A DNA stretch of 64,000 nucleotides from Maylandia zebra (lineage: Eukaryota; Chordata; Actinopteri; Cichliformes; Cichlidae): positions 29,479,786-29,543,785 of the forward strand of contig NC_135176.1 in NCBI RefSeq assembly GCF_041146795.1. The letters are read 5' to 3'. Under the pieces are notes generated by a model. That model was not told where the DNA came from, made no database searches, and worked only from the letters and a program-made list of their open reading frames with translations. The position numbers were made by a program, and so were the translations under genes. Position 1 is the first letter of the stretch. Each line of letters opens with the position of its first letter. Shown here piece by piece: positions 12,461 to 62,700 of this stretch.

Positions 12461-24930
<12,470 letters not shown>

Positions 24931-30488: not shown

Positions 30489-31005
30489 TAAGTACACCTT
30501 GCTAGGGTTGCTCTGTCTTTTGCCTCGAGAAGTTCTCTGTGGCACAGATTCAATGATGCCCTGGAAACTGTCCTCTGGGATTTTGGTCCATATTGCACAT
30601 CCATAATGTGAATCTTCCATTCCACTACATCATGGATCTGCTCTATTTGATTAAGATCTTGAGACTGTGGAGGCCTTTGAGTAGAGTGAACTTATTATGT
30701 CCAAGAGGATAACACACTTTGGTCATAAAGGGATGGACATGGTGAGCAACAACACTCAGGTAGATTCCGGTTATTAAATGATGCTCAATTGGTACTAAAG
30801 GGCCTACAGTGTGCCAGTAATATATCCCCCACATATTTACATCACCAGCTGTAGCTCAAACCATTGGTACAAGGCTGGATGGATCTATACTTACATGTTT
30901 ATGCCAAATTATAAAACCACCATGTAAAAGTCTAAGGAGAAATCCAGAATGTTCAGACCAGGCAATTTTCTGTTGTCCAGTTTTGGTGAAGTTGTGTGAA
31001 TTTTA
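30489..31005 (-). pseudogene. Tc1-like transposon relic A
   Basis: The plus strand reads TAAGTACACCTTGCTAGGGTT, ATGCTCAATTGGTACTAAAG and CATAAAGGGATGGACATGGT, which is the reverse complement of a very common fish Tc1-like transposase gene. On the minus strand it covers the middle and C-terminal part of the enzyme, including the WTTEN-type segment near 30970. Frames are broken and parts are deleted, so it is inactive. The 197-codon frame at 30909-31502 partly overlaps it in a wrong frame. Confidence 0.65.
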
Positions 31006-34147: not shown

Positions 34148-34576
34148 ACACAGGTGCCACCTTCCTCTACCTTGTTTTTATTTTCCTGCAAGGCAGATAA
34201 CTACAGACCAGGAGCAGCAAAAAAATGTTTGATGAAAGGTTGTTGTGTTTTTGTAGAAACGAACATTTCAACAGTCTGAAGTGATATGCATCTGCCCTGT
34301 CGGAGATCTGTTTTCAGGTGACATGTTTTCCTTACACTTCTCAGAACAGAAATATGTGTGAATGTTGAGGGCCAAGCGGCCACCACAGACTAAAGTCTCT
34401 TGCCTGACTCCCTCGCACAGCAGGAAAAATGGACATGCACAAGGATTTGAGGGAGTTTGGGCCAAAATGATGGTAGATAAATGGGTCAGAGTGTTCATGC
34501 AGTATTCAGTATCTATCGAAAGCAGTCCAATGAACCAGTGGAGGTCGTGCCTCGTTGTGGTCATAATATTATATTA

Positions 34577-34601
34577 CAGTTTTTCTCGATTGCTTAAACA
34601 C
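34577..34601 (+). repeat. Left terminal inverted repeat of the IS630/Tc1-type element
   Basis: Starts CAGTTTTTCTCGATTGCTT directly after TA. It pairs with 36909-36933 at 24 of 25 positions. Confidence 0.93.
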
Positions 34602-34954
34602 TATAACCAGGCCTCTAAACTAAAATTTCAAAACCGTAACGCTATTGTTCAAAAAGCTCACCCATTTCCCTGAACTATAAACACTATTCCCTGCTTTGAC
34701 ACATGACTCAAATTTGGTGAACTGTTACTGCAAAACTCTACACACAAATCCCTACATTTTACAGTGCTTACACCATGTAGTCATTTAGAAAGTACTAGCA
34801 TGCAATAATGTTAACTTAAGTCAGCATAGCTTGAGCTCAATTAGCACACAATTAACCAGGTGGAAACACTAGGAGTCAAAATTTAGCACACACCAATCAG
34901 AACCTGCGATGGATAGATAAAAGGGCCAAAGTCAGCTCATTCAGGTTTGAAACA

Positions 34955-36542
34955 ATGGATCCAAAGAGATGCAAAGGAAGAGGACGTGGTGGAGAAAGAG
35001 GACGTGGTGAAGGAGGAGGACGTGGTGGAGGAAGAGGAGGAGGTGGTCTAGGACAACAGGAAGGTGGTGGAGGAGGAGGGAGAGGTGGAGGAGGAGGAGG
35101 ACGTGGTGAAGGAGGTGGAGGTGGAGAACGACGGCGACAAGGAAGGGGAAGAGCAAGGGCAAGAAGACAGTCAGTCTCGGATGAAATTCGAGCCACTTTA
35201 GTTGACCATGTCCTTGTCCATGGGATGACTATGAGGGAGGCTGGGCAACGAGTACAACCAAATTTGAGTCGCTTCACTGTTGCCTCCATCATCAGAACCT
35301 TCAGGGAGGAAAACAGGTAGGTGTACTTGCAGTAAGACTGCTTTGTACAGTAATGTTTAAGTTACTGAACTTATGTGTCTTGAGTTTCAGTATGTTTCCA
35401 TTATTTTCCTGTAAAATGAATGTGTGACAGTTACAGTAATGACTGCTTCTATTTTTGTAGGACACAGAGACGACCACCTGGTGGAGGCAGGTTAAGGCTT
35501 TTGTCGGAGGAGCAAGAGAGGGAACTTGTAAACATGGTAATTGCAAATAATGTAATCCGCCTGCAAGAGATTCAAAGGAGAGTGATTGAGGATGATCATC
35601 TTTTTCGAGGCATACATGCCATCAGCCTCTCCACAATTGACCGCATCCTCCGAAAGAATCAATTCCGGATGAAACAGGCATACCGAGTCCCTTTCGAACG
35701 AAACTCTGACAGAGTGAAAAACCAACGTGTGGAATATGTTCAGGTATGAGTTTTGATACTGTATAAAGTATTGTGTACCATCACAGCATGGCAGTTTATG
35801 CTGCCATTTCAGCACTCTTGAACTGTGGTTCAGGGTACCGATTGACTCTACTGTGTTATGTGTTTTGCAGAGAATCTTTGAGATTGAAGGACGGCCTCTT
35901 CCCCATGAAATAATCTTTGTGGATGAGGCAGGTTTTAACCTGACCAAAAGAAGGAAAAGGGGGAGGAACATAATTGGCCATCGGGCTATTGTAAATGTCC
36001 CTGGTCAGCGTGGGGGGAATGTCACTATGTGCGCAGCCATCAGCCAACGAGGGGTACTCCACCGCCATGCCGTACTAGGACCCTATAACACTATGCTTCT
36101 CCTTGCTTTTCTTGATGGTTTAAGACAACATATGTTCCAGCTGGACTACAGGGAACCAGCACAGCCAGAACAGCCTCACTACGCTGTTGTGTGGGATAAC
36201 GTCAGCTTCCATCGCGCTGCTCTGGTTCGTGACTGGTTTACCAATAACCCAAGGTTTTCTAATATCTTTCTGCCTGCATACTCTCCCTTTCTAAACCCGA
36301 TAGAGGAGTTATTTTCGGCATGGCGGTGGAAAGTGTATGACCGAGAACCTTATGTCCGTGTTCACCTCCTTCAGGCCATGGAAGAGGCCTGTCTAGACAT
36401 ATCAGTAGATGCATGCCAGGGGTGGATCAGGCATGCAAGAGGATTTTACCCCCGCTGCCTGGCTGGGGCCAATATAGCCTGTGATGTGGATGAGATTCTC
36501 TGGCCTGACCCAGACCAAAGACAAGATGCTGAGGTGGGATAA
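34955..36542 (+). CDS. Intron-containing DD35E transposase (IS630/Tc1 superfamily)
   Basis: A DNA-cutting and joining enzyme that mobilises its own element at TA sites. Exons 34955-35316, 35461-35743 and 35871-36542 join in frame (CAG|GTAGGT, TTTTTGTAG, CAG|GTATGA and TGTTTTGCAG boundaries) to give 438 residues. Residues 7-70 are an Arg/Gly-rich low-complexity tail. Residues 72-121 form a first helix-turn-helix (GMTMREAGQRV), and residues 133-190 a second winged one. The catalytic core has VDEAGF (Asp233), VWDNVSFH (Asp324) and SPFLNPIEELF (Glu360), with 35 residues between the last two. All three catalytic residues are present. The start ATG follows a TATA-like AGATAAAAGG at 34915-34924 and is the first in frame. 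Spliced transposases are uncommon in this superfamily. Fish annotations often label such proteins as IS630-like. Confidence 0.92.
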
Positions 36543-36908
36543 TGTTTCTGGTGTGTGTTGTACTGTATAGTACATGAATGACAATGTGCCACTGTACATA
36601 CATTGGTTGCGTCTTTTGTGTTTATCATGTGACAAGGGTTTTGAAGGGGAGAACCATAAGCAACCTATTTGTTTTGGAACTATTGTTTTGAATTAATTGT
36701 ACCAGTGTGCAAAACTCTGTTGTAGTGTGTGTGTTTTTGAGGGCTTGTGTTTGATGTCTGTGGGCAAAGTTTGGTTTTTCAGCAGGAGTGAATAGTTTTG
36801 GGTGTAGAGCTTCATTTTGACCTGGAAATAGGATGTTTGGGAAATTGAGTGAGATGTTATGGATTTGTGTTTACTGTTGTGAGGATATGAGGCGTAGTTT
36901 CAAGAAAT

Positions 36909-36933
36909 GTGTTTTAGCAATCGAGAAAAACTG
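36909..36933 (-). repeat. Right terminal inverted repeat of the IS630/Tc1-type element
   Basis: Ends AGCAATCGAGAAAAACTG directly before TA, the mirror of the left end. Confidence 0.93.
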
Positions 36934-37019
36934 TAATCATTATATATGTGAAACACAGGCTCCTTTTTGTATCTGCAGACAACTTTGAGCAGTTTGTCTA
37001 TCAATGCTTCAGTGTCCAG

Positions 37020-37499: not shown

Positions 37500-37925
37500 G
37501 TTAGCTGTTAAAATTTCATGTTGTTGTTTGGAAGGGTTTCTGGGAGAAAGCCTCTTCCTGGCTCAGCATGGCTTAGGTTTGCAAAGCTACATCTTAACAA
37601 ACCACTTCTGGAACAATGTCCTTGGGATATGTGAGACTAAAGTGGAGATGTTTGGCCATAAAACACAGCAACACATTTGGTGAAAACCTCCACAGCGGTG
37701 GAGGGGTGATGATTCGGGTTGTTTGGAGCAACAGAAACCGGACACCTTGAAGTCATTAAGCCAACCACGTGTTTCTCTGACTCTGTATACCATATACAGA
37801 GTCAGATGTCAAATGGCCCAAATTGGGTCACAGCAGCAAATCTACAGCAGAATAGCTGAGAAAGCCAAAAGCTTGGACACAAGTGAGGGCACGGATGTTT
37901 CTCATTATCTGGGACAATTTTAATA
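37500..37925 (+). pseudogene. Tc1-like transposon relic C
   Basis: TTTGCAAAGCTACATCTTAA, ACTTCTGGAACAATGTCCTT and AAAGTGGAGATGTTTGGCCA correspond to the LRFAKxHLN, FWNNVLW and ETKVEMFGHN segments of a fish Tc1-like transposase. GGTGGAGGGGTGATGATTCG (GGGGVMIW) and CCAAATTGGGTCACAGCAGC follow. Premature stops and internal deletions are frequent and the C-terminal third is gone. Confidence 0.7.
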
Positions 37926-41381: not shown

Positions 41382-42676
41382 AATATCATTAGCGCAAAAC
41401 GAGCTAATGATGCAGCTTAATGCTGAAAAATAATCGGCATGCTGGCCAGAGGGGTATGAAGGAAGCTCAACCTCGCTAGGATTTCTTGGTTCAACAAAAC
41501 CTAAACCCGCAGACAGAGATAACGGGTATCGTTAGCTCAAACACGTCTATATAGCTTATTTACGAATCTAATACCTCTCACATAAACAGCGTATTAATAT
41601 CTACCAGTACTGTCAACGCATATGTAAAAGTATTGATTTTCCTGCAGCGAAGAACTGAATTAGGATGAGCTTACAAAAAGCAGCTTGCTGAGACAAATAC
41701 TACATCGAGTGTTCAGTATAATCATTAGAAGAAATAGCTCAGGATGCAGGAAGAAATATTTTCAAATGTATTCACAGTCCTCAGAGGTCTTCTATCTATC
41801 TCTACAGCTGTTCGTCTTAGAGCTATTTTAACTCCTCAGAGAGAGGACTGCAGGCAGCATTGCAGAATCAGATCGACAAGTTTTGACAGGAGTTTTACTG
41901 CAGCAACTGTGGAATGAGCTGCGAGTCAAACAGCCAGCTTCACCAGGCCCCCGGGTGAATGCTCGGCAGGTCGAAGCCAAAGAAAATGTACCTGAGCATC
42001 AAATGGAAAAGGAACTGATTGTAGATAAACAGGTGAGTCATCTGGGTACCTGCAGGGAACAACCTGTAGCTGACTTTGTCCTTGTTAACATCTGGCAACT
42101 GTCAGTGAGGGAGATATTTAAAAGAATTCTTTTGACGCTTTTCTTTTAAGCGGCACACCGTGCACTCCTGTCATGTTTACATGCCACTATTGCATGTCAT
42201 AGACTTTGTGCATTCTCCAGCCGTTAGTCTGTGCTTTGTCACGTATCCTTGACTTTTAGACATCCTGATACTGCAGGATTTAACGGGAGTTCTTTCTCCC
42301 AAGTGAGATTGTTGAGGTTCACTCTTTAATATGGCATGAATCTTACCCTGCAATATAGCGAACCTTGGGATAACTGCTGTTGTGAACTGTCACTTAAAAA
42401 TCAATTGACCTAAACAAGCAAAAAGTAATAAAAACTTTGTAAAAGTCCTGTGGTTAGTTAATTGTCTTTACAACTACTGTGAGGATTATAGGTTTGGCTG
42501 AACAGCTGTTATAGGCGTTCATCAGATAGTTACTGCACTGAGACAGACAACCATTCACGCCTATGACAGTTAACCCAACCAGTGCATGTCTTTGAACATG
42601 TGCAGTGGGCAGAACATGGAAACATGAAACTAACCAACACATGTGCTGTCAGTCAGCTCATCTTCCGCTGCATTGT
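41382..42676. other. Intergenic, nothing recognised
   Basis: No supported gene or named repeat between the hAT-like element and the tRNA gene. Confidence 0.5.
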
Positions 42677-42749
42677 GGTTCCATAGTGTAGTGGTTAGCA
42701 TGTCTGCATTACACGCAGAAAGTCCTGAGTTCGATCCCCAGTGGAACCA
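42677..42749 (+). tRNA. tRNA-Val (anticodon UAC)
   Basis: Seventy-three bases with a 7-bp acceptor stem (GGTTCCA with TGGAACC), an A-box TAGTGTAGTGGTTAGCATG, and an anticodon arm TCTGC-ATTACAC-GCAGA that puts TAC at the anticodon. The B-box GAGTTCGATCCCCAG forms a closed T stem. It differs from the usual vertebrate valine tRNA at only a few loop and stem positions. The first T run (TTTTT) is about 57 bases downstream, so termination is not ideal. It could be a recent pseudogene, but it folds fully. Confidence 0.8.
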
Positions 42750-43080
42750 GAAAATACTTATCAAATCATAGTGAGAAGTGTTTGAATAATAGAAACCTAC
42801 TACCTCCATTTTTCTGTATTTAACACAAAAGCTAAACAGCACAGTCTACTAAGACAATGTGCTTAAACCAGTATATGTGATAATGTTGCACCCCTGAATC
42901 TGACATCTCAGTCAGAACTACAAAAGTAAACCTGCAGTGATTGGTCATTATCTGTCACTCACATTTAAAGTAAAACACCCCAAAACACAAGGTTTTCAGC
43001 AGTTATGGTCCCAAACTTAACTCTAACCTTAACTATGTTCTCAGGAAATCAGAATATGTCATTTTGCATGACTTAACCAG

Positions 43081-49243: not shown

Positions 49244-49422
49244 TTAGTTCTGGTGACGCTTCATGTGCAGAGCCAAATGGTCCGAGCGTGAGAAGCAGCG
49301 GCTGCAGGCGATGCACTTGAAGGGTTTGGCCCCGGTGTGTTTCCGGTAGTGTCTGGTGAGCTCGTCGGATCGAGCGAAGCGCCAGTCGCAGTTGTCCCAT
49401 GTGCATCGGTATGGCTTCTCGC
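49244..49422 (-). CDS. klf5l: klf5-type last exon, zinc fingers 2 and 3
   Basis: The acceptor on the minus strand is TTTTTGCAG|GCGAG. It encodes [37 protein letters not shown] and [20 protein letters not shown], then QN and TAA. Finger 2 is C-x4-C-x12-H-x3-H and finger 3 is C-x2-C-x12-H-x3-H. The MKRHQN end is typical of KLF5. Confidence 0.96.
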
Positions 49423-52400
49423 CTGCAAAAAGAGAAGAGGAGAGCGCAGAGGCATCAGCTACATACTTTAGGTTTTTTCTTAAATTTCTTAAAGCAAAGA
49501 CAAGTTCGAGTACACATCAGTCAAAGGACCAACTTTACTTGAACACACCACAGAAAGCGATTCCACTTTCCCACACTCAGTCATTCAACATAAGTGCTAA
49601 AGAAAATTCCTTTAACATACCAGATCGTGTTTTCTATCAGATATAATTTTAGCTCATATATTTCTGAGTGTTTTGATGTTTGGCGGTTTGTTTCCTGCTG
49701 TTTGAAATATTACAGTGATGTCAGCACTCTAAAAATAACATCCCTTCACAATAAGACTTGTGTGCCTGTATGACGTCTGTGTGTAGTTGTATTTCTAAAT
49801 GTGGGGGGGATTGTTTGAATGGCAGTTAGCATGCACTTTTGGTGTTTACTGCTTCCTTCTGTAAAAACTCCTGTCTGACTTCAGCGAAACTAAACCGAGA
49901 TAAAAATCTCATGAAACAGTGTTTCAGACAATGGGTTCAACCATTGTGACGGTGGTGTGCATAAAAACAAGTGTCAAATTGTGAAAGGAAAGATTTGAGT
50001 TGGAAAAGTAAAAAAAACTTGTTTTCACATGAATTAACAGAAGAAAAATGAAAAAAGACACAAAGAATTAAAGAAATTTTGCAAGGACCTTGCAGCAGTG
50101 TGTGCGTGCGTGTCATCCCAGCTCACTTTATGGACATTTTCAGCTACAGTTTCAATTATCAGACTTGGTGCATACGAGGGAGAAAGTTAAGAAGGTTGCT
50201 TTTCCTTTTTTTTTGTAAATATAACAGCAGCAAATCAAGTTTTTCTGCAGTAAAACTTGATGACTTCAAAGCATTAAAGATTAACGACCAATTTTCTGTG
50301 TGCTTGCATCATTCCTTTACTTCTGAATCCTAAAGAAACTCCACACAAACATCGCACCGAAACCATTGTCAGCACTGCAGTCTGTCTCCTCTCTGATAAT
50401 ATTTAACTGATGAGCGCCTGAATTGGATAACCAGAAGAAAATGGATGGATGGAGCTCGTTTTATTCTATCAGCTCAACTTTATGTCATTCTGTCAACTTT
50501 CTAATGTGATTATCATCAAAGTATTTTGCCTTCACAAGAATTAGACTTGTTTTAATATCCCATCACAAGCGAGTGAACATCAATAAGACAGTTTATCTGT
50601 AACCACTGAAAGCGGCCTTTGTGTCAGGAGTCTCGGAGCACAGCACGAGTCGTTGTTACAGGTGTGGCAGTGTTTGATTGTCACACTGCACATTAAGAAA
50701 TGTAATTGTGAGATTGTACTTTTCCATTTTTTTGTTTTCGGAGGGGAGGTTATGGCTTTGTGCCATTTGCTGGAGACTGAAAACAAAATTGTTCAGAGGT
50801 GTGGATGTAAAAACGAGATTAGTGTTGTGTAACCCTATAGGCTCACAGCCTGCTTTGTTTTCATGTCATCAGTTGCTTTTTTTTTTTTTTAAATCCATGT
50901 TTTAGAGAAAATTAAAAGGATTATTGGAGAAAGTACAACTTGAACTCTTGCAAAAGCACAATGTCCCTGAATTGTTGATTGTCTGGGACATAAATCATAT
51001 TATGCTCCTGTAATTATAAGGTAACAGTAGTGGGTAGTAATGGGTAAGGAGGTATAATGACAGAGAACCTGTAGAATGGGAATTCAAAACACTGTGGAAT
51101 AACGAGTTAAGTAAATCTAGCACGACAGTTATCTTACCCCACCCAAACATGGACATTTCTCTGCTGTGCCGCAACGTGCTCTTGCCAAACAGTGAGCTAA
51201 TCATCAACAAAGAGAAAAAAAGGCGCAGTTGAAAGGGTTGGTATGCACATGACAAGAGAGAAAGAGGGGGAAAAAAGTCATCTTTCATAGCCAAGGTGGA
51301 AATTAATGTTCAGGAATCAATGCGAGGCCTGAGCACAAACATAAGTGAAAAGGAGATAAGCAAACAATAAAGGTCTGCTCAGGCCAGATTCCTTCAACTT
51401 TGAGTCGGTGCTTTCCAAAAGAAGAAAAAAAAAAAGTTCATGCCCTGACTAAAAGTTTAAATATGGCGTTTTCCTAAATCAAATGCCCCAGTTCCAGGAA
51501 AGTATCCAGACTAGATTTATTATTGGTTCCAATGCAGAATAAAAGTGATAGCTTTATACCTTGTACTGTTTGCTCACTGTCAATAGACTGTAGTGTTGTT
51601 GACATTCCAAATAAGCAATCCGGTAGGTATTCAATGCCATAAAGTATAATTTCTAAGACTCTAAGTTCTGTCTGATAGGCTGAGGTAACCTATCAGGCAG
51701 TGTCGAGGGAGTGTGCCTCTCCTCGGCTGTGTGGGCCATCAAGTGCTCATTATTAGCATGGGCCCTGTTTGTGCTGATTAGATAGCTTCTGTTATTGACC
51801 ATCAATCACCAGTGACAGCCATTAATGGAGTGAGTGGGTCCAAAGAGCAAAGGGCGGGCGGAGAATTTAGGTGACAGGAAGGAAGTATTAGTATGTATTA
51901 TTAGTAATGCAACATTTTGTGCGTCTTATACTAAAAAAAAGTGTATTTGCAATTCACATTTCCAAATATTTTGTCCTCAGTTAGTCCAGCCACTCTTCTG
52001 GGCAGGTACAAGCTAAAAATAACAGGACCGCAAGTGTGCTAGCTCAGTGGATCATTGGGTTTCTCTACTATTTTCAAGCATCTTTACCTTAAAGTGCCTT
52101 GAGATTACTCATGTTCTTAACCGGCTCTAAATAAATAAAAATTAAATGATCATGAACACGTTAATGGATTTTAAACAATCCAACCAGCCCCGAAACCCCA
52201 CATTACAGGCACTCCAGCCTCCTTTGAGGGCAATATCCTGTTTCTAGAGGTAACCGCACTTGATGTGTGTGAAGAGGTGGAGTGCAAATGTCTCCATATA
52301 AAAGGTTTAGGTTCTCAACCCACAGGTGTGTTTGGTTTTCCTCTATAGCTGCGCTGATGAGGTGAAAAGCACAGACGCCTCTCTCAGACTATTATCCCTG

Positions 52401-53555
52401 AAAGCTACAGCAAACATGACGGTGAAATACGACACACACACACACGCAGAACAAACAGACTTGACTGGTACATATATAGACGGTGGATAAAAAGAAGAAA
52501 AAAAAACTTGCATAGGATCCCTTCCTTTAGTCAAAGGGGGGAAAATGGGTTTGTGGGAGATTTACTACACATGCATGAGAAGGTAAAAACTGACACATCC
52601 ATCATGTATTGGAACCTCATGCACTAGAAAAACTGAGCTTTGACAATACTGAGACATTTCACAAAGAATTTAACTTTTTTCTGGCTGTCAGCGCTGTTCA
52701 AGTGGAAACTGGAAATTTGCATGACTTCGCTGTCTATTTTTAAATCGCTTAACAGGGACGCTTCTTAAAAGGTACCAGTACTCAAAAGACTTCACAGGCA
52801 TTTGTGTAGCTGTTTGATCAGGTGGCCGATTACAAACGGCAACGCCATTATCTCTCTCTTTCTCTAGAATGCACACATGGGTGGCTGTAGCTCAGGTGGC
52901 AGAGCAGGTCAGCCACTAATCAGAAGGTCGGTGGTTCGATCCCAGGCTGCCTCCTGGCTGCATGCCAAATATCTTTGGGCATGTTGCCTACTGGTGGTGG
53001 TCAGAGGGCCCGGCAGCCTCGCCTCTGTCAGTGTGCCCCAGGGCAGCTGTGGCTACAATGTAGCTTGCTATCGCCAGTGTGTGAATGTGTGAATGACCGA
53101 ATGTAGTGTAAAGCGCTTTGGGGTCCTTAGTGACTGAGTAAAGCGCTATACAAATGCAGGCCATTTACCATATATTAATAAATGCATGAAACACACACAT
53201 TCAGAATCATGACGATCTGGGTTTTAACTTGTGCACAAAACTGATTTTTCCAAGTTGTTTTTGTCCATAAAAAAACAACAACAGATTTTCTAACCTAATG
53301 CATTTCTATACCTTCTGCTTAATGTCATGGCAATGCACACTCAAGTAGAATATACCAGAAGTGTAATAATAACATTTTATAACCACCTCTACCTGGCTTT
53401 ACTGAGTCAAAGAGCAAACATTTTCAGGCTCTTCAGAACGCCAATAAACTCTTTGTGGACCTCTTGGCTTTATCAGCTCACTCTGTGTTTGTAAAGAGGG
53501 CTGGAGGGTTCCCTAATCAAACTGATAGTATTTTACTCTTTAGACACACACATGT

Positions 53556-55225: not shown

Positions 55226-58200
55226 CCAAAGGACTTCCTGATACTATTGCCTTAAGAAAAACAACTCCTGTCTCTCTGGCAGTGAACTGAAACAGACATA
55301 AATGAGGGATGATGTTTCACCACATTAAAGGTTCTGTGCCGGCAGACTGTTGATGCAACGTATGTGTTAATACCTCACAGGAAACCCTGTACGCACAGAC
55401 TGACACCAGTCATGCAGGCGTACATTACTATGTAGTTGTTAATGAGCCATCCCAATTAAACACTTTTGGGTTAATCGGGATCAATAACAGCCAGTTTATC
55501 ACCATTGAACACCGTGAGTAGCTGCTGGTTCGGTGGTATAAAACGGTGGGAGACACGACTCTCGGTAAATGTCTCACTTTTGATTTTGTGACTGGTTCAT
55601 AGTTACACACAGAGTAAACAAACACTGCAATCCTATCAGTCCTATCTATCTATCGATCTACAGAATGTAAACATGGGTTTAAACTTGGCAGGTCCTGTTA
55701 AGATACTATGTGTAGATTAATAATAAAATAACGATAATCTCTCTAGAAAATAGATTATTTTCAATTTCTTTGATAAGAAAACTACATACAGCATTCTTTA
55801 TGAGTTAAAGGTGTGGACTGCTTCAACTCAGGCAAACAGAACCAATTATAGAAAGGTTAATGCTGTAATGTAACTTTAAAAAGGTCAGTGTGAAGTCAGT
55901 GGCAACTTTATAGTGTTTGGTTTATATTTAAGGTCCAATATTATGCACCGATTCATGTGTGTGACTAAGTTCAGCAACCCAAATAAATCTGAGAATAAAA
56001 GGGGGGCCTAGAACGCAGCTGTGAGGCACTCCACAAGCACAGTATGCAGATGCCTAATCAATAGATAAGCCAAGCTATTTTTAAGGCCGATGTAAAACGA
56101 CTATCCATCCAGCAAATCACATTTGTTACGGAAATACACATAAAATAACTAAACCTTGTGTCACATATACTGTATTGTGTCATGATATGCCTCAAATACT
56201 TGCATTAGCTTTGTAAATTTCTTTTGATTTGCCTTAAACATTTCCTGGAGTTCAGAACAGTCGGTGCAATGTTTCTTTTACATGCTCAACTTATGAGTCA
56301 TCAACTGAATGCAAAACAAGACCAAACAAGCCTGGTTTGGCCAGACAGCAAGCGAAGCCTTGCGGTGGGAACCGTGGACTGACCAAAACAAGTAAACCAG
56401 GAATCCTTGGTCAGTGACATGTCTGCTGCTGTGGGATCTGCTAACCGTGACGCACTCTTTGAAATGAATGCCCATGACTCCATCACGCACTCAGCCTACG
56501 TCCAGTTGCGGTTTGCTAGTAAGACGCATTTAGTAGCCGCATCGACTTGCCAGATGATTATAAGGATGGGACGTGCACTGCGAGGTGCGTGTGGGCATGT
56601 GAACGTCTTTGTTCTGCTTTGTAAAGGTATCTGCACGTGCCAACTCATAAATTCACTGCAAGTCACACCTCATGACACAGATCTAACGCACGTGGGCAGA
56701 ATATGAAATTCGACATTGTAGGTCATAATAAAAGTGTCCGAATTTTGTCTACATTTGGTCATGATATCGTAACAAACTGCAGGTTTGGAGCCACAACCAA
56801 AAATACTGCTTAGCCAGTGATACAGTAAATACTGTAAAGGTTACTTTGTTTTCTTTTCACAAACAACAGGCGCTGAAACATGCGGCTGAAGCCACTGAGG
56901 TCCACACTTGTCAGCGTACTCTTTAATTGCTCTTGTTTTGTTTACCATTCTCACTGCATGTTTCGAAGCCCGTTTGTCTTTTGTGCTGCTGCATCCTGCT
57001 GCTTCAACAGCCCAACTTCCCCACTGGGATCCATAAAATTTCATCTTATCTATTTATGACCGCAGAGAGATCTGTTTCTATTTGTCTGTTCATTCACGTG
57101 TTCACGCTTCGCTCTGTCAATATTTTCACACTGGAGGAGCTCTGCAGCTTTAATTGCATGAGTAAATCTTCAAAATCCAGGTCTGGGGCCTCTGGGAATT
57201 CACAGGTTTCATCTTACAGAAGGGAAATACATTGAAACCAGCCCCTCCGCCCCCCTGCTCCGTTCTCCGAACCCCCTACCTTCCTCCTCCTCCATCCTTC
57301 CTTTCAGGAACTGAAAAGCAGGAGTAACTGGTTTGGCCTTTATTTAACTGCGTGTCTTTCCTCTTTTTTTTTTTTTTAACCCTTCTTTTCTTCGTCCTAC
57401 CCTCCTCCCTCGGCCCTTTGTTCTCTTTCACTGGGGACGCTACGTAGACAGGTATGAACATGTATAAACACGGCGCAGAAAAAACAAAAACTCAAATATG
57501 TTGCTTCTGTGCCTTTTCTTTTCATTGCGTTTACCTTCTTCATCAACATCATCTCTATTATTGTTGCTGGGTGTATCGAAACTGGCGCCGACATAAAGCA
57601 CAAATAAATAAGCTTAAAGCAACTGAACTTAGAGGATGACAAAGATGCATGACTGCAGCATGCTGCTGCTTCACCACCTACAGTGTAAAGTTAAAAAACT
57701 AACTTCCAACCTTTGAATGTTTGGTGAATCAATCCTAAATTAAAATTGGTATAAATTTGTAAATAACAGCAAAGACTGTATTTCAGCCCTCGGGGAGATT
57801 ATTTTCTTACCTGTGTGTGTTCTTTGGTGTGCCTTCAGATGGGAGCTCTTTGTGTAAACTTTGGTGCAGCCTGTGAGGAAATAACAGAGGATCATAAGCC
57901 AGGAGGACAGCTGACAGGAGGACACAGCACAAAATCTGTCTTCAACATGAATCATTAGGTGTTTACTTACTCATAACATATTAAAAGTACACTGTTTGGA
58001 TAACATAATGCAACATCTTGCTTCTAATTTAACTGCAAATTTAGTTGAATAGCAACAGGTTGTAGTCTTTACTGCAATGAACAGTTAAAGGAACAACGAT
58101 AATATGTATTATTTATAAAACGAAGAGTAAAGTAACTGATGCAAAGTTTGCTTTCAGCCTGGTTTTTGCACATTTTCTCTCACAGTATTAATGACTGTGA

Positions 58201-59733
58201 GGATTTCGTTTGCAGGTCAGAGCCGTGCATTGCCGAAAGATTTGCATGTGTGTTGCTTTGGGTATAGAGTTTATTTACATTCAGTGACACTGGGAATTGG
58301 ACTAGTTCATGTGTGCAGATATGGGATTGACTGAACCATGCTTTGTGTGTCCCATTGGTAATTTAGAAAAGATTGTAAGTGAAGCACCGACTGCCCTGAG
58401 CCGGCAAAGTGTACCACTTTTCGCGCTTTCAGGTGATGTCACCAGTAAGATCCCAGTACAGCGAGACAAAAGCTGCCCCTGACTGGGCTTTGGGGGCATG
58501 CGGTGAGGCACAAAGATCAATGTGTTGCGTACATCCTGGTAAGCTGCAAGGTTTGACTTGTTCATGTTGATTTTGGAAACAGTTTTGCCTTGAACATCAC
58601 AATGGTACATACCGGTCCAGACAATAGGACATGCAAATGAAAGTGAAGTCAGATAACGTAGTTTCATTTCACATCGGCTCATATTTTTATTTTCATTTCA
58701 GAGAATCGTTGTTAAAACCAGCTACGTGGGTTTACTTTCTAATGGAGAAACTTCAGTTGTAAACCATAGTTTATAGTGATATGGAAACAGACCACCCACC
58801 TGGGTAGTCGCAGAAGTGAATCCTCCTCTTCTCCAGCTCTGGGTTGTTTCGCCTATTGTATTTTGGACCTGTTAAGACACCCTGGCCGTGTGTCATCAGC
58901 ATGGCATGATGAGACATCCCCGCTAGCTTTATTCCTCCCATACGCTGCTGGTAAGGGGGTGGACCCTGGGGTGCTAGGCTCAGCAGCTCTGCCTGGCCGT
59001 CTGGGCTTCCGGGCTGGGAATTTGGTGGCGAAGGCGGTAGGCTGTGTGGCGCTGTGTGCTGGGATGAGTTGTTTGGAGAGTGCTGGTAGTAGCTGGGATG
59101 ATGATGTGGCAGTTGGTGCTCTGCCATCATGTAGTTGCCGTTGGTCGTCGGCAATGTGGCGTTGCTGAGGTTCAGCATGGTCCTGCCGCTGCTGGAGCCG
59201 TGCGGTGAGGGACTGTTGTGCGATAGGGTCATGGTGAGGTCGCCACTGCTCGCGATGGGCATGTGGTAGACCTGCGGCTGTGGAGGTGGAGGTCCGATGT
59301 GAAGCTCTGTGACCAAGTTTGGCTGCTGCTGCTGCTGAGATCCTGTGGTCACGTTCACCATTCCTCCAGCGCTCATGTCCGGTTTTATGAAAACGTTGTT
59401 GACTACAGGCGGCACGCTGAACACCGAGGTGAAGTCTGGAAGGGCCTGGCTGGTTGGGATGGAGCAGGGCACCTCCATCCCGGGTTCCGTCTTGATCTGC
59501 TGTGGTGTGAGGGTCTTGGTGTTGGGCCTGTAGAGGCCTGTGCGGAGGTGAGTGGTGCTGGGAAGGATGACGTTGATGTTGAGGCTGTATGGGGTGGCAG
59601 GTTTGTCCTCTGCGAAGTACTCGTCCACCACGGAGGCGCTCTCTCGTCTGTACTTCTTGTCGGTAGTGTCATTCGGGGTACTCAGTAGAGGACTGCTGTG
59701 CTGGGGAAGGTATTTGTCTAATTCGAGTTGAAT
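49244..59733 (-). CDS. klf5l: Kruppel-like factor 5-type transcription factor (exon 1 missing)
   Basis: A nuclear zinc-finger activator of the KLF5 group. Exons 58800-59733, 57811-57870 and 49244-49422 join in frame on the minus strand to give 390 visible residues and a TAA stop. Visible landmarks are [15 protein letters not shown] (near residue 29), [10 protein letters not shown] and [23 protein letters not shown] and [10 protein letters not shown] degron-like [12 protein letters not shown] (residues 233-244), the WW-domain ligand PPPY (258-261) and three C2H2 fingers ending HMKRHQN follow. These match KLF5 block by block. Human KLF5 has 457 residues, so roughly one exon is missing. Because it lies beside klf8 rather than klf12, it is more likely the klf5-like/klf5b copy than the direct KLF5 orthologue; the symbol is tentative. 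Confidence 0.88.
50418..50452 (+). repeat. SINE/LINE 3' tail
   Basis: CTGAATTGGATAACCAGAAG followed by AAAATGGATGGATGG, the common fish retroelement 3' end. Confidence 0.5.
52075..52145 (+). repeat. SINE tail fragment
   Basis: TTAAAGTGCCTTGAGATTAC followed later by CTCTAAATAAATAAAAATTAAATG resembles the 3' tail of a fish SINE whose head is absent here. Confidence 0.45.
52879..53170 (+). repeat. Near-complete tRNA-derived SINE
   Basis: Head GTGGCTGTAGCTCAGGTGGC with B-box GGTGGTTCGATCCCAGG, a body with CAGCCTCGCCTCTGTCAGTG and CCCCAGGGCAGCTGTGGCTA, and the tail TAAAGCGCTTTGGGGTCC, AAAGCGCTATACAAATGCAG and GCCATTTACCAT. It is the best copy in the window and the reference for the split SINE at 17443-19012. 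Confidence 0.88.
53557..53619. repeat. (AC)n microsatellite
   Basis: An uninterrupted AC run of about 60 bases in the klf5-type intron. Confidence 0.97.
55190..55223. repeat. (AC)n microsatellite, short
   Basis: An AC run of about 34 bases in the klf5-type intron. Confidence 0.95.
55965..56110 (+). repeat. Fragment of the dispersed LINE-related repeat
   Basis: GGGGGGCCTAGAACGCAGCT and GTGAGGCACTCCACAAGCAC resemble the part of the teleost repeat family that reads CCTAG-AC-GA-CCCTGTGGAACTCCA. It is a decayed piece. Confidence 0.4.
57811..57870 (-). CDS. klf5l: klf5-type 60-bp exon inside zinc finger 1
   Basis: Bounded on the minus strand by TTCCTCACAG and CACAG|GTAAGA. It encodes [20 protein letters not shown], the second half of finger 1. 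A 60-bp exon at this position, splitting finger 1 between its two cysteines, is a known hallmark of KLF5 genes. Confidence 0.96.
57871..58799 (-). other. Intron of the klf5-type gene (0.9 kb)
   Basis: Lies between the two halves of zinc finger 1. No other feature is seen. Confidence 0.85.
58800..59733 (-). CDS. klf5l: klf5-type large exon (activation region, degron, PY motif)
   Basis: Acceptor CTTTTTCAG|ATTCAACTCG and donor CCCAG|GTGGGT on the minus strand. The 311 whole codons run from [18 protein letters not shown] to [11 protein letters not shown]. The exon includes a Q run near residue 135, the degron-like [12 protein letters not shown] at about 59037-59002 and PPPY at 58962-58951. The upstream exon joins in phase 0. 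Confidence 0.93.
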
Positions 59734-62700
59734 CTGAAAAAGAAAAGAGACGCAAAGTTAACAGAAATACTTCAAATGTGTACTGAAACTAGGGGAAAAA
59801 ACATTCACACAGTTATTTCACAAACATCCTACCACACCCTTTAAATAACAATACATCATAAGCTGAGATTTGCACATGACTGTTGCTGTTAAAACTCACA
59901 GATCCCATCCATCTACGACAGACTTCCATGTTCACAGTTTTGGACTCTTTTCATGTGCTTTTGAGTCCTAATCTGATCAGCGCTTTAAGAGATTATTTGG
60001 TGAACGTGGATGCAGAAAGTTACACCCATTCCATGAAAAAGGAAACACAGCATGGTTGGAGGATGCTGTTTCTCCCAGCATCCTCCTTGCGTCATAGCTC
60101 ACATTCCTGTTTCCTACTGAAGCTCAATGTCCTGACAAGCAGCCACAATTGACAGTTGGGGCAGATAGCTAAAAAGGGAATTCACCTACAAGTAAACCTT
60201 ATAATACTGTAGCCTCCAGGCCTTTAGAGTGCATCACACCTGCTATGTGCTTGAATGATCATTCACTGACAATTATGCAGCTGCAGCAATAATCCTGGAC
60301 ACTGTCATATAAACATGCATACACTCTTACAGGTGATACACATTTAAAAACAAATGCTTCCCTGCTGAAAGCTGAAAGCCTTGCCCCTTTGCTTTCACTG
60401 CGCAGCAGGCTTTTGCCAGTAAAAATCCATTGGGACAAAGGAAGGGACGTGTTTTACATTTTCATTCCATTGGGATAAAGAGAAGAAGATGCAAACAGCC
60501 AACAGCGAGAGCAACGCAGGTAGAATTCCATAAAAAAATTGTAAGGAAAAAAAAAATGCAAATAGATTCAAACCTTCAGTGGCAGACCAAGCACATAAGT
60601 AATCTAGGGTCACTTTACATAGTCTGTTCAAGTCTTGTCATCTTAAAGAAGCAAATCTGACAACTTCCCCGTGACCGAGCACTAGACAGAGAAACGTCCA
60701 ATAGAATCACATTTAGAGAGGGCGACCATCTGCTGCAACCGGTTGGGAGAGAGGGAAAAGCAAAAAAAAAAAATTATTGAGAAACAACAAACAATACCAA
60801 CAATGGACAGGCTGGCGGGGCCTGTAATCGTAGACCTGATGTACAGAATGAAAGAAGACAGAGATGAAAAAGCCCAGGCTACTGAAAGAGAAGACAAAAC
60901 TAATGACGTGCAACAGTGCCAGGCAAATACCTGGAAATTAAAAGGAAACAGAAGAGATGCACTGCATCATGGGAGGTCCCGATGGACGTATAGCAGCATA
61001 AATAAAGAGAAGGTTCCAGGCCATATAATCTAGTTCTAACTATAGGAGTAAAGAACTCTACTGGATCAAAAATGGTAAGATGAGAAGGCAGATCATTAAT
61101 GGCTTTGCATGTAAGGAAGGTTTTATATTTGATAATTAGTTTGTTAATAACTCCCTATTATATAACTAGTAGCTAATTAGCTCTGTGTAAATAAGATGTG
61201 ATTATCTGGTTCCGTGTAGTGACGGGATCCCCAGCTGCGCAGCGTTCTTGTTCCTAACAAGTTTCTTTTTCAAGGAACTTGTGATTTCTCAGATATCTCA
61301 CAGTGATGCATATAGAAGGCATCCCACTTTAGCAATTCACTCACTAAAAGTTGCACAAGGAAGGTTATAAAACCCATTTTTCACCTTATACCTCATTAAT
61401 TTTGATCCACAGTACTTACATCTCTATGACTGTATTTTTTATTTGTACTCCTCTCGCTAATTTAAAGATGGTGAGGTCTACATTAAAAAAAAAGGCTTGA
61501 AAGTTGGAGGAGGCCAAGAAAATTGTAAAAGTGAGACACTGTATGGGTGTCTGCTACACAGGTTTTCAATGCAACAGGTAGCATTTATCATTACAACTAC
61601 CAGAATGTCTGCTGGAGCACAAAAGAACCATTTTCAGGTGACAGGATGAAACAGACAGAGTGAAGAAGAAAATAAAACTGCAGATATTTTCTTCTGATTA
61701 AGTGGAAAACATTTGATTTTCATCCAAAGTGCACCTTGGCACTGTTTCTCATTTAAAGTCTACATGTGGACTATTGCTCCTTCAGAGGTGCACAAGCTGT
61801 CAAACAAAAAAAGGATCTAGACTGCAGAAGCCACACACTGTGTCTACGATCATAAATGCACAAAGCCGTTTAATGCAGGCTATTTATATGCTGTACATAT
61901 GCATGCAGAATTTCATACTGTTCATGCACACCAACTTACTGACAAATTAAAGTTCACACGAGCATGCTAACACACACAAACAGGTAGAGAGTTGGCTCCA
62001 TGGGTGTGGCCGACAGTCTGATGCACGAAGAAGAGGAGGAGGGAGAAAAAAAAAGGGGAGAAAGCACTCACAGCTAAACCAAAACAAAGGCTGAAGGCAT
62101 GAGAAAGGTGCAGTGAAACCTAAACACTGTCAGGTAAAAATAGACCTGCCAGACAAATCTGATCCGCACAGTGACGACAGATATACACCCAGGATGATGG
62201 GAGGGAGGAGCGACCAGGTTAAAAAGAGAGGTGGGGGTGGGGGGAATCAGGAAGAACAAAGGTCCGGAGAAGAGACGGAGAGAAAGCCACGTGAGCGGTA
62301 AAAGTGATGATTAATTCTGAAAGTGATAGTTATGTCTGAATGAGTGCAGCTAATCTAACGGGGACATCTGATTAGATTCAAAGAGATTGTTTGTAAAGAT
62401 TTCCAAACTCCAGAATAAACTCACAAACTCAAACCAAATACTGCGCTCTGCCAGTCACTGAAACATAATGTTCACTGACCAAAAACGTGTTATTTCAGCA
62501 CCAGTTATAGTGCTTTTTGGGGTGATTCGAGAATGGAAGACAAGAATTATTTTAACTGATCTCGACCCGATCGGTGGGAGAGTGAATTCCATGAACTACG
62601 CCCCTTCCGTGGGAGATCACAAATCCACAGCTCGCAGTAAAATCCCGCTCTGAAACGAGCCATTTGGGACAAATGACCTAATGAGGTGCTGATGCGTTGG

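Follow-up and report, generated by a model that had tools for sequence, protein, structure and literature searches.

A full-length, intron-bearing IS630-Tc1-mariner transposon of Maylandia zebra and its recently moved family

Genes of Tc1/mariner transposons are as a rule intronless, according to a passage in PMC10379824. The stretch of Maylandia zebra DNA analysed here (64,000 nucleotides, referred to as the window) holds a transposon whose gene appears to be divided into three exons, and the locus raises the questions of what kind of element this is and whether it, or its family, has moved of late. We conclude with considerable confidence that it is full-length, probably autonomous, and a member of a young cut-and-paste family in the IS630-Tc1-mariner group, within an intron-bearing clade that stands apart from the Tc1/mariner genes of the same genome.

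Structure of the element and its gene

The element spans positions 34577–36933 of the window and measures 2,357 bp between two TA dinucleotides (34575–34576 and 36934–36935, without strand), which represent the target duplication as it is known from two empty sites of other family copies. Its left terminal inverted repeat occupies 34577–34601 (+; family form ..GCTTAAACAC) and the right one 36909–36933 (−; family form ..GCTAAAACAC). The 25-nt termini match at 24 of 25 positions, and the slightly longer arms at 34573–34601 and 36909–36937 are 97% complementary across 29 nt. No further match to the 25-nt ends exists inside the window at up to three mismatches, and none is expected from shuffled sequences. 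The single terminal mismatch reflects a difference between left and right ends throughout the family rather than decay, since 21 of the other 28 copies with two ends, described below, are identical to the window element at both termini, the left end in its left form and the right end in its right form. A 16-nt subterminal motif, GCAAAACTCTACACAC, lies at 34730–34745 (+); it has an exact counterpart near the right end of the sister subfamily represented by L085 and may be a binding site of the transposase.

All parts of the gene lie on the forward strand. Exon 1 (34955–35316) carries the start codon, an in-frame repeat array (34975–35124) that encodes an Arg/Gly-rich N-terminus and differs in length among copies, and the beginning of the helix-turn-helix part. 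It is followed by intron 1 (35317–35460; 144 nt, GT..AG, phase 2), by exon 2 (35461–35743), which encodes the remainder of the helix-turn-helix region (HTH_32, residues 108–184, below Pfam's cut-off), and by intron 2 (35744–35870; 127 nt, GT..AG, phase 0). Exon 3 (35871–36542) encodes the RNase H-like catalytic domain and the stop, with the triad codons at 35922–35924 (D233), 36195–36197 (D324) and 36303–36305 (E360). The predicted spliced product has 438 residues, of which 35 separate D324 from E360. Matching ends, flanking TA, three exons with GT..AG introns and the 438-residue protein with its complete triad had all been claimed by the initial annotation, and each was found again here.

Profile and structure comparisons agree with this gene model. 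Exon 3 matches the Pfam model DDE_3 (E = 1.4e-22), and the protein matches transpos_IS630 (E = 8.3e-39), above NCBI's cut-off for IS630 transposases; the latter match does not separate Tc1 from IS630, because Tc1 genes pass the same cut-off. The predicted structure of exon 3 has a mean pLDDT of 80, and the solved structures that match it best are Sleeping Beauty, Mos1 and SETMAR. The element thus combines an RNase H-like DDE/D domain, a TA duplication and terminal inverted repeats, which are the defining features of the IS630-Tc1-mariner group.

As to the surroundings, two frames of the window, at 12720–13097 (+) and 58771–59757 (−), have no Pfam hit; they presumably resemble KLF12 and KLF5, in which case the element would lie in the KLF12-KLF5 interval. 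A tRNA-Val gene (anticodon TAC) is predicted at 42676–42750 (+) by ARAGORN in its bacterial setting and is matched by the Rfam tRNA model as well. Three pairs of dispersed repeats with 75–81% identity are also found (24730–24906 with 49265–49444, 17552–17681 with 52986–53102, and 24123–24189 with 57806–57872). Three Tc1 relics had been reported close to the element, and weak matches were located for two of them, at 30608–30969 (−) and 37606–37680 (+).

Copies, target sites and recent movement

We searched one assembly of the host genome, which comprises 962 Mb in 63 contigs. A DNA search with the element gave 412 candidates, 40 of which were scored and yielded 58 matches, and the exact 27-nt family end occurs 90 times genome-wide (46 + 44), with 0 occurrences of its reversed control. 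Thirty-nine places were fetched: 28 have both ends (with at most four mismatches) and flanking TA, making 29 copies with that of the window, and the 11 places that lack one end were excluded from further use. A search with exon 3 returned 3,881 candidates, and 34 of the 150 that were scored cover its full length with an identity of at least 97%. The element is one of dozens of copies and no rare or lone survivor. The same count was one of the checks proposed for recent mobility, and with 29 two-ended copies rather than a single one its outcome favours that claim.

The family is young. Divergence was counted in 26 of the 29 copies (L080, L082 and L083, which are nested, rearranged or internally deleted, were set aside) with the exon-1 repeat omitted, and the mean pairwise difference is 1.1%, with a range of 0.18–2.1%. 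At neutral rates of a few 1e-9 substitutions per site per year, this difference corresponds to an age on the scale of a million years for the family. An open spliced frame is present in 17 of the 29 copies; in L063, which is among them, the GT at intron 2 is lost, so that 16 retain GT..AG at both introns. Among copies, variation is lower in the coding parts than in intron 1 and the untranslated ends, and lowest in intron 2. The length of exon 1 varies between 245 and 644 nt across the family, and the frame is kept in 25 of the same 26 copies, although this requires no selection, since every repeat unit has a length divisible by three.

The target sites record how the copies were inserted. A T precedes the TA in all 29 copies and an A follows it in 26, and the wider target is the weak palindrome TATTAATA (29 copies). 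Empty sites could be found for two copies. L064 lies inside a sister element that, in L086, has no insert and a single TA (T-TA-T), with 94% identity over 220 nt across the joint; L045 interrupts a repeat that is also present in L017, where a single TTAA stands at the site, with 90% identity over 149 nt. TTAA is therefore the preferred target and its TA is duplicated, because both empty sites contain one TA and the flanks favour T and A. A sister element that is likewise nested shows the same duplication (CTTAAG became CTTA..TAAG). The sister copy L087 is flanked by A-TA-A, so that the target rule is looser there. The title of Tenzen and Ohtsubo (1991), as cited in PMC2170065, gives TA within CTAG as the preference of bacterial IS630, and a four-base palindromic target core is in this respect an IS630-like habit. 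The many near-identical copies at different sites, their mean difference and the two empty sites bear out the suggestion of recent mobility at the level of the family, which has moved in the recent past. Separately, four copies (L062, L063, L064 and L065) are of equal length and have in common a 9-nt deletion in exon 2, at four different places, and so have moved after the deletion, whether in cis or in trans.

From its parts, the element would be transcribed from inside, and kinship with the sister subfamilies described below suggests that two introns would then be spliced out to give a three-exon mRNA. The transposase would bind the ends, and perhaps subterminal sites, through its helix-turn-helix part, and the DDE domain would excise the element and insert it at TTAA with duplication of TA. 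We make no claim that the window copy itself works, because selection on the frame is weak: pooled dN/dS is 0.76 among the 17 open copies, a weak signal, and 1.56 among 9 broken ones. The window copy may instead be inactive, open only because it is recent and dependent on the transposase of a sister copy for any movement, and this we regard as a serious contender, at somewhat under even chances. It would accord with dN/dS values near neutrality and with the eight private substitutions of the window copy in 2,171 positions, among the higher values (the 25 other copies have 0 to 10) and more than in most copies; its protein has private replacements near the active site, one of them on the strand leading to D324 in the exon-3 model. 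Mobilisation in trans is plausible because broken copies and the four copies with the 9-nt deletion sit at different places. Against inactivity, the frame, splice sites, ends and triad of the window copy are all intact.

Introns and sister subfamilies

The genome contains several sister subfamilies, for which exon-3 identities of 67, 65, 61, 58 and 56% were measured; in the genome-wide exon-3 search they appear as tiers near 66, 65, 63, 59 and 56%, with several places each. Four sister exemplars (L085 to L088) were compared with the window copy at the exon borders. In all four, the same Asn-Arg precedes the GT at the end of exon 1, exon 2 is preceded by AG, and exon 3 is preceded by AG at the same place; exon 2 ends before a GT in the three exemplars in which this border was located (that of L088 was not located). 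Consistent with a conserved border, nearly all exon-3 matches begin at the start of exon 3 (150 scored of 3,881 candidates).

Evidence of splicing is preserved in one sister subfamily. The fossil L084 is the sole match in the genome to the junction pattern of the 65% sister subfamily. Unrelated sequence gives way to homology at the first base of exon 2, and exon 2 is joined exactly to exon 3, where L086 has a 181-nt intron. L084 thus speaks for the splicing of intron 2 in this sister subfamily, and its features suggest the remnant of a retro-copied, spliced and perhaps chimeric sister transcript. The piece lies at L084:1000–1778 (C18:30.79 Mb) and starts exactly with exon 2, as if an exon of the host or of a retroelement had been spliced on; an open frame of 295 codons was also noted there. 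The genome holds no match, at up to three mismatches, to the spliced-junction pattern of the window's own family, and for this family we infer splicing from the intron positions common to the sisters and from the one sister fossil. One might still argue that the introns are not real and mark two gaps in a pseudogene, given that the gene model comes from genomic sequence. This is hardly credible: of 29 copies, 27 keep GT..AG at intron 1 and 28 do so at intron 2, the positions are the same in four subfamilies, and intron 2 is exactly removed in L084.

Two further features are common to the clade. The protein begins with an Arg/Gly-rich region in the window family and in the four sister exemplars alike (59–78% R+G), and a C-terminal extension with the motif CDVDE.LWP is conserved in the fish sequences. 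The L085 subfamily has 709 exact ends of the form TACAGTTTTTTCTGAWTGCTTAA in the genome (367 and 342; control 0). Among 100 ends listed, many form pairs about 1.26 kb apart, with concentrations on contig C3 around 18.9 and 19.2 Mb; the pairs apparently represent a large class of shortened elements of about 1.26 kb. One L085-type copy of 1,262 bp is nested in a copy of the window family, at the equivalent of window positions 34817–34818. Eight places of the family search (within the scored subset of candidates) start at element position 236–237, and one of the eight was read through.

Place in the IS630-Tc1-mariner group

To place the clade, trees of the catalytic domain were built with six fish rows, seven Tc1 rows and 22 bacterial rows. 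They used 17 of the 80 loci of one relative search and five of six plasmid loci (without L003); 62 viral loci were unused, and the sister sequences L084, L095, L096 and L097 were left out. In the first tree the fish rows are separate (93/100), at the end of a long stem, and the Tc1 rows form a clade of their own (100/100). After pogo elements (three rows) and a mariner (one row) of the genome had been added, without the short mariner piece L242, the support became 98/97 for the fish rows and 95/84 for Tc1, and the pogo rows were placed away from the fish clade. The Tc1 genes of the genome lie close to salmonid-type Sleeping Beauty. These trees place the clade apart from the Tc1 and mariner sequences that they include, and the proposal that the element represents a lineage different from Tc1 holds, as fish and Tc1 rows form separate supported clades in both. 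The tree that had been proposed as a check is less decisive beyond this point. AU tests do not reject a grouping of fish with Tc1 (p-AU 0.489 in the first test, 0.435 in the enlarged tree) or of fish with bacteria (0.448 in the enlarged tree). The best enlarged tree groups fish with Tc1 and mariner at a support of 79/81, and long branches meet. A union of the fish clade with bacterial IS630 that excludes Tc1 had been considered and was dropped, because the AU tests reject neither grouping.

The spacing between the second D and the E is of limited help. It is 34 in 21 of 22 bacterial rows and in six of seven Tc1 rows (the remaining two lack one of these residues) and 35 in five of six fish rows, but 36 in L087. 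The element, with 35 residues, differs from the 34 of DD34E/Tc1 and is not inside the Tc1 clade, yet DD35E is a poor label, since the sister subfamily L087 is DD36E; the spacing given in the initial annotation thus does not place the element, nor does it by itself make it a Traveler.

Membership in Traveler, a published DD35E Tc1-like family, would explain the spacing, the TA duplication and the occurrence in fish, all of which are described in passages of PMC7093834. We consider it very improbable. By the same description, intact Traveler transposases of ray-finned fish have 303–350 residues and are nearest to DD34E/Tc1, and the words intron and exon are absent from the main text, whereas the present protein, with 438 residues, lies outside that range, its gene has two introns, and its clade falls outside Tc1 in a tree built without Traveler sequences. 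A place beside Tc1, as published for Traveler, is not rejected for the fish clade (p-AU 0.435).

The bacterial IS630 family (IS630, ISY100) is alike in its DDE_3 and transpos_IS630 matches and in the duplication of TA, and cut-and-paste transposition into TA has been demonstrated for ISY100, as stated in a passage of PMC2170065. Its preferred target is TA in CTAG, and here it is TA in TTAA. The fish clade differs in having introns, an Arg/Gly-rich N-terminus and a spacing of 35–36 instead of 34; of the 22 bacterial rows, 20 were read to the stop, and none of these showed the CDVDE.LWP extension. A recent arrival from bacterial IS630 might seem to be favoured by the mean identity of the window's catalytic domain, 28.1% to bacterial IS630 (22 rows) against 22.1% to Tc1 (7 rows). 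It is nevertheless most unlikely, as the best identity is 34.6% among the 15 of 491 plasmid records listed and 34% among the 80 loci retained of 324, the stem of the fish clade is long, and introns common to the subfamilies argue for long residence in eukaryotes. All 491 plasmid records are below 60% identity and none covers 80% of the query, and the 15 listed are bacterial IS630 only. Phage records contain no relative at E 1e-5, and viral contigs no close relative by exon 3 or by the exact pattern of the terminal repeats.

Intron-bearing elements have been reported from the group before. TLEWI (Puzakov 2020), Tc1-like elements of molluscs with 3–5 spliceosomal introns, are cited in PMC10379824; by this description they resemble the present element in having introns in the transposase gene, but they are Tc1-like and their introns number 3–5. 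Sailor, pogo, Gambol and Zator are described, in passages of PMC8533490 and PMC7386202, as eukaryotic branches apart from Tc1/mariner and mixed with IS630. Sailor has DD78–111E in these literature passages, against DD35E here. It is conceivable, though rather doubtful, that the clade is likewise a separate eukaryotic branch of the rank of pogo or Gambol, which still moves in a vertebrate and is marked by two conserved introns, an Arg/Gly-rich N-terminus of variable length, a conserved C-terminal extension and a preference for TA within TTAA.

No published description of the clade was found in the literature searched, to which Repbase and the majority of subscription journals did not belong; a text search with strings of the terminal repeats gave no transposon paper (by title), and one with transposase peptides gave none. 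The clade may already sit in the RepeatMasker class TcMar-ISRm11, which we take to be an IS630-like class in fish repeat annotation; the term was not found in the main texts of the fish genome and repeat papers searched.

Most Tc1-like genes of fish had been characterised as badly broken, and for this genome that is not supported as a general statement: of the 101 matches to the IS630 model that were scored, 81 are free of stops, although these are the best 101 of 12,763 candidates and so biased towards intact genes, and some belong to the element's own clade. About 40 of the 101 have a 361-codon open frame, and the one that was read, L091, is Tc1. A mariner-like transposase match within a 435-codon open frame was also seen twice, at C8:28104687–28104896 and C8:28719603–28719812.

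The element belongs to a recently active family within a known transposon group. Its length-variable Arg/Gly-rich region is an unusual addition to a transposase, and the preference for TTAA together with duplication of TA separates the choice of target from the length of the duplication. If the separate place of the clade is true, the classification of IS630-Tc1-mariner elements gains a branch. In the P element of Drosophila, splicing limits transposition to certain tissues, and a young family with open, intron-bearing genes allows a test of whether splicing confines transposition in the same manner here.
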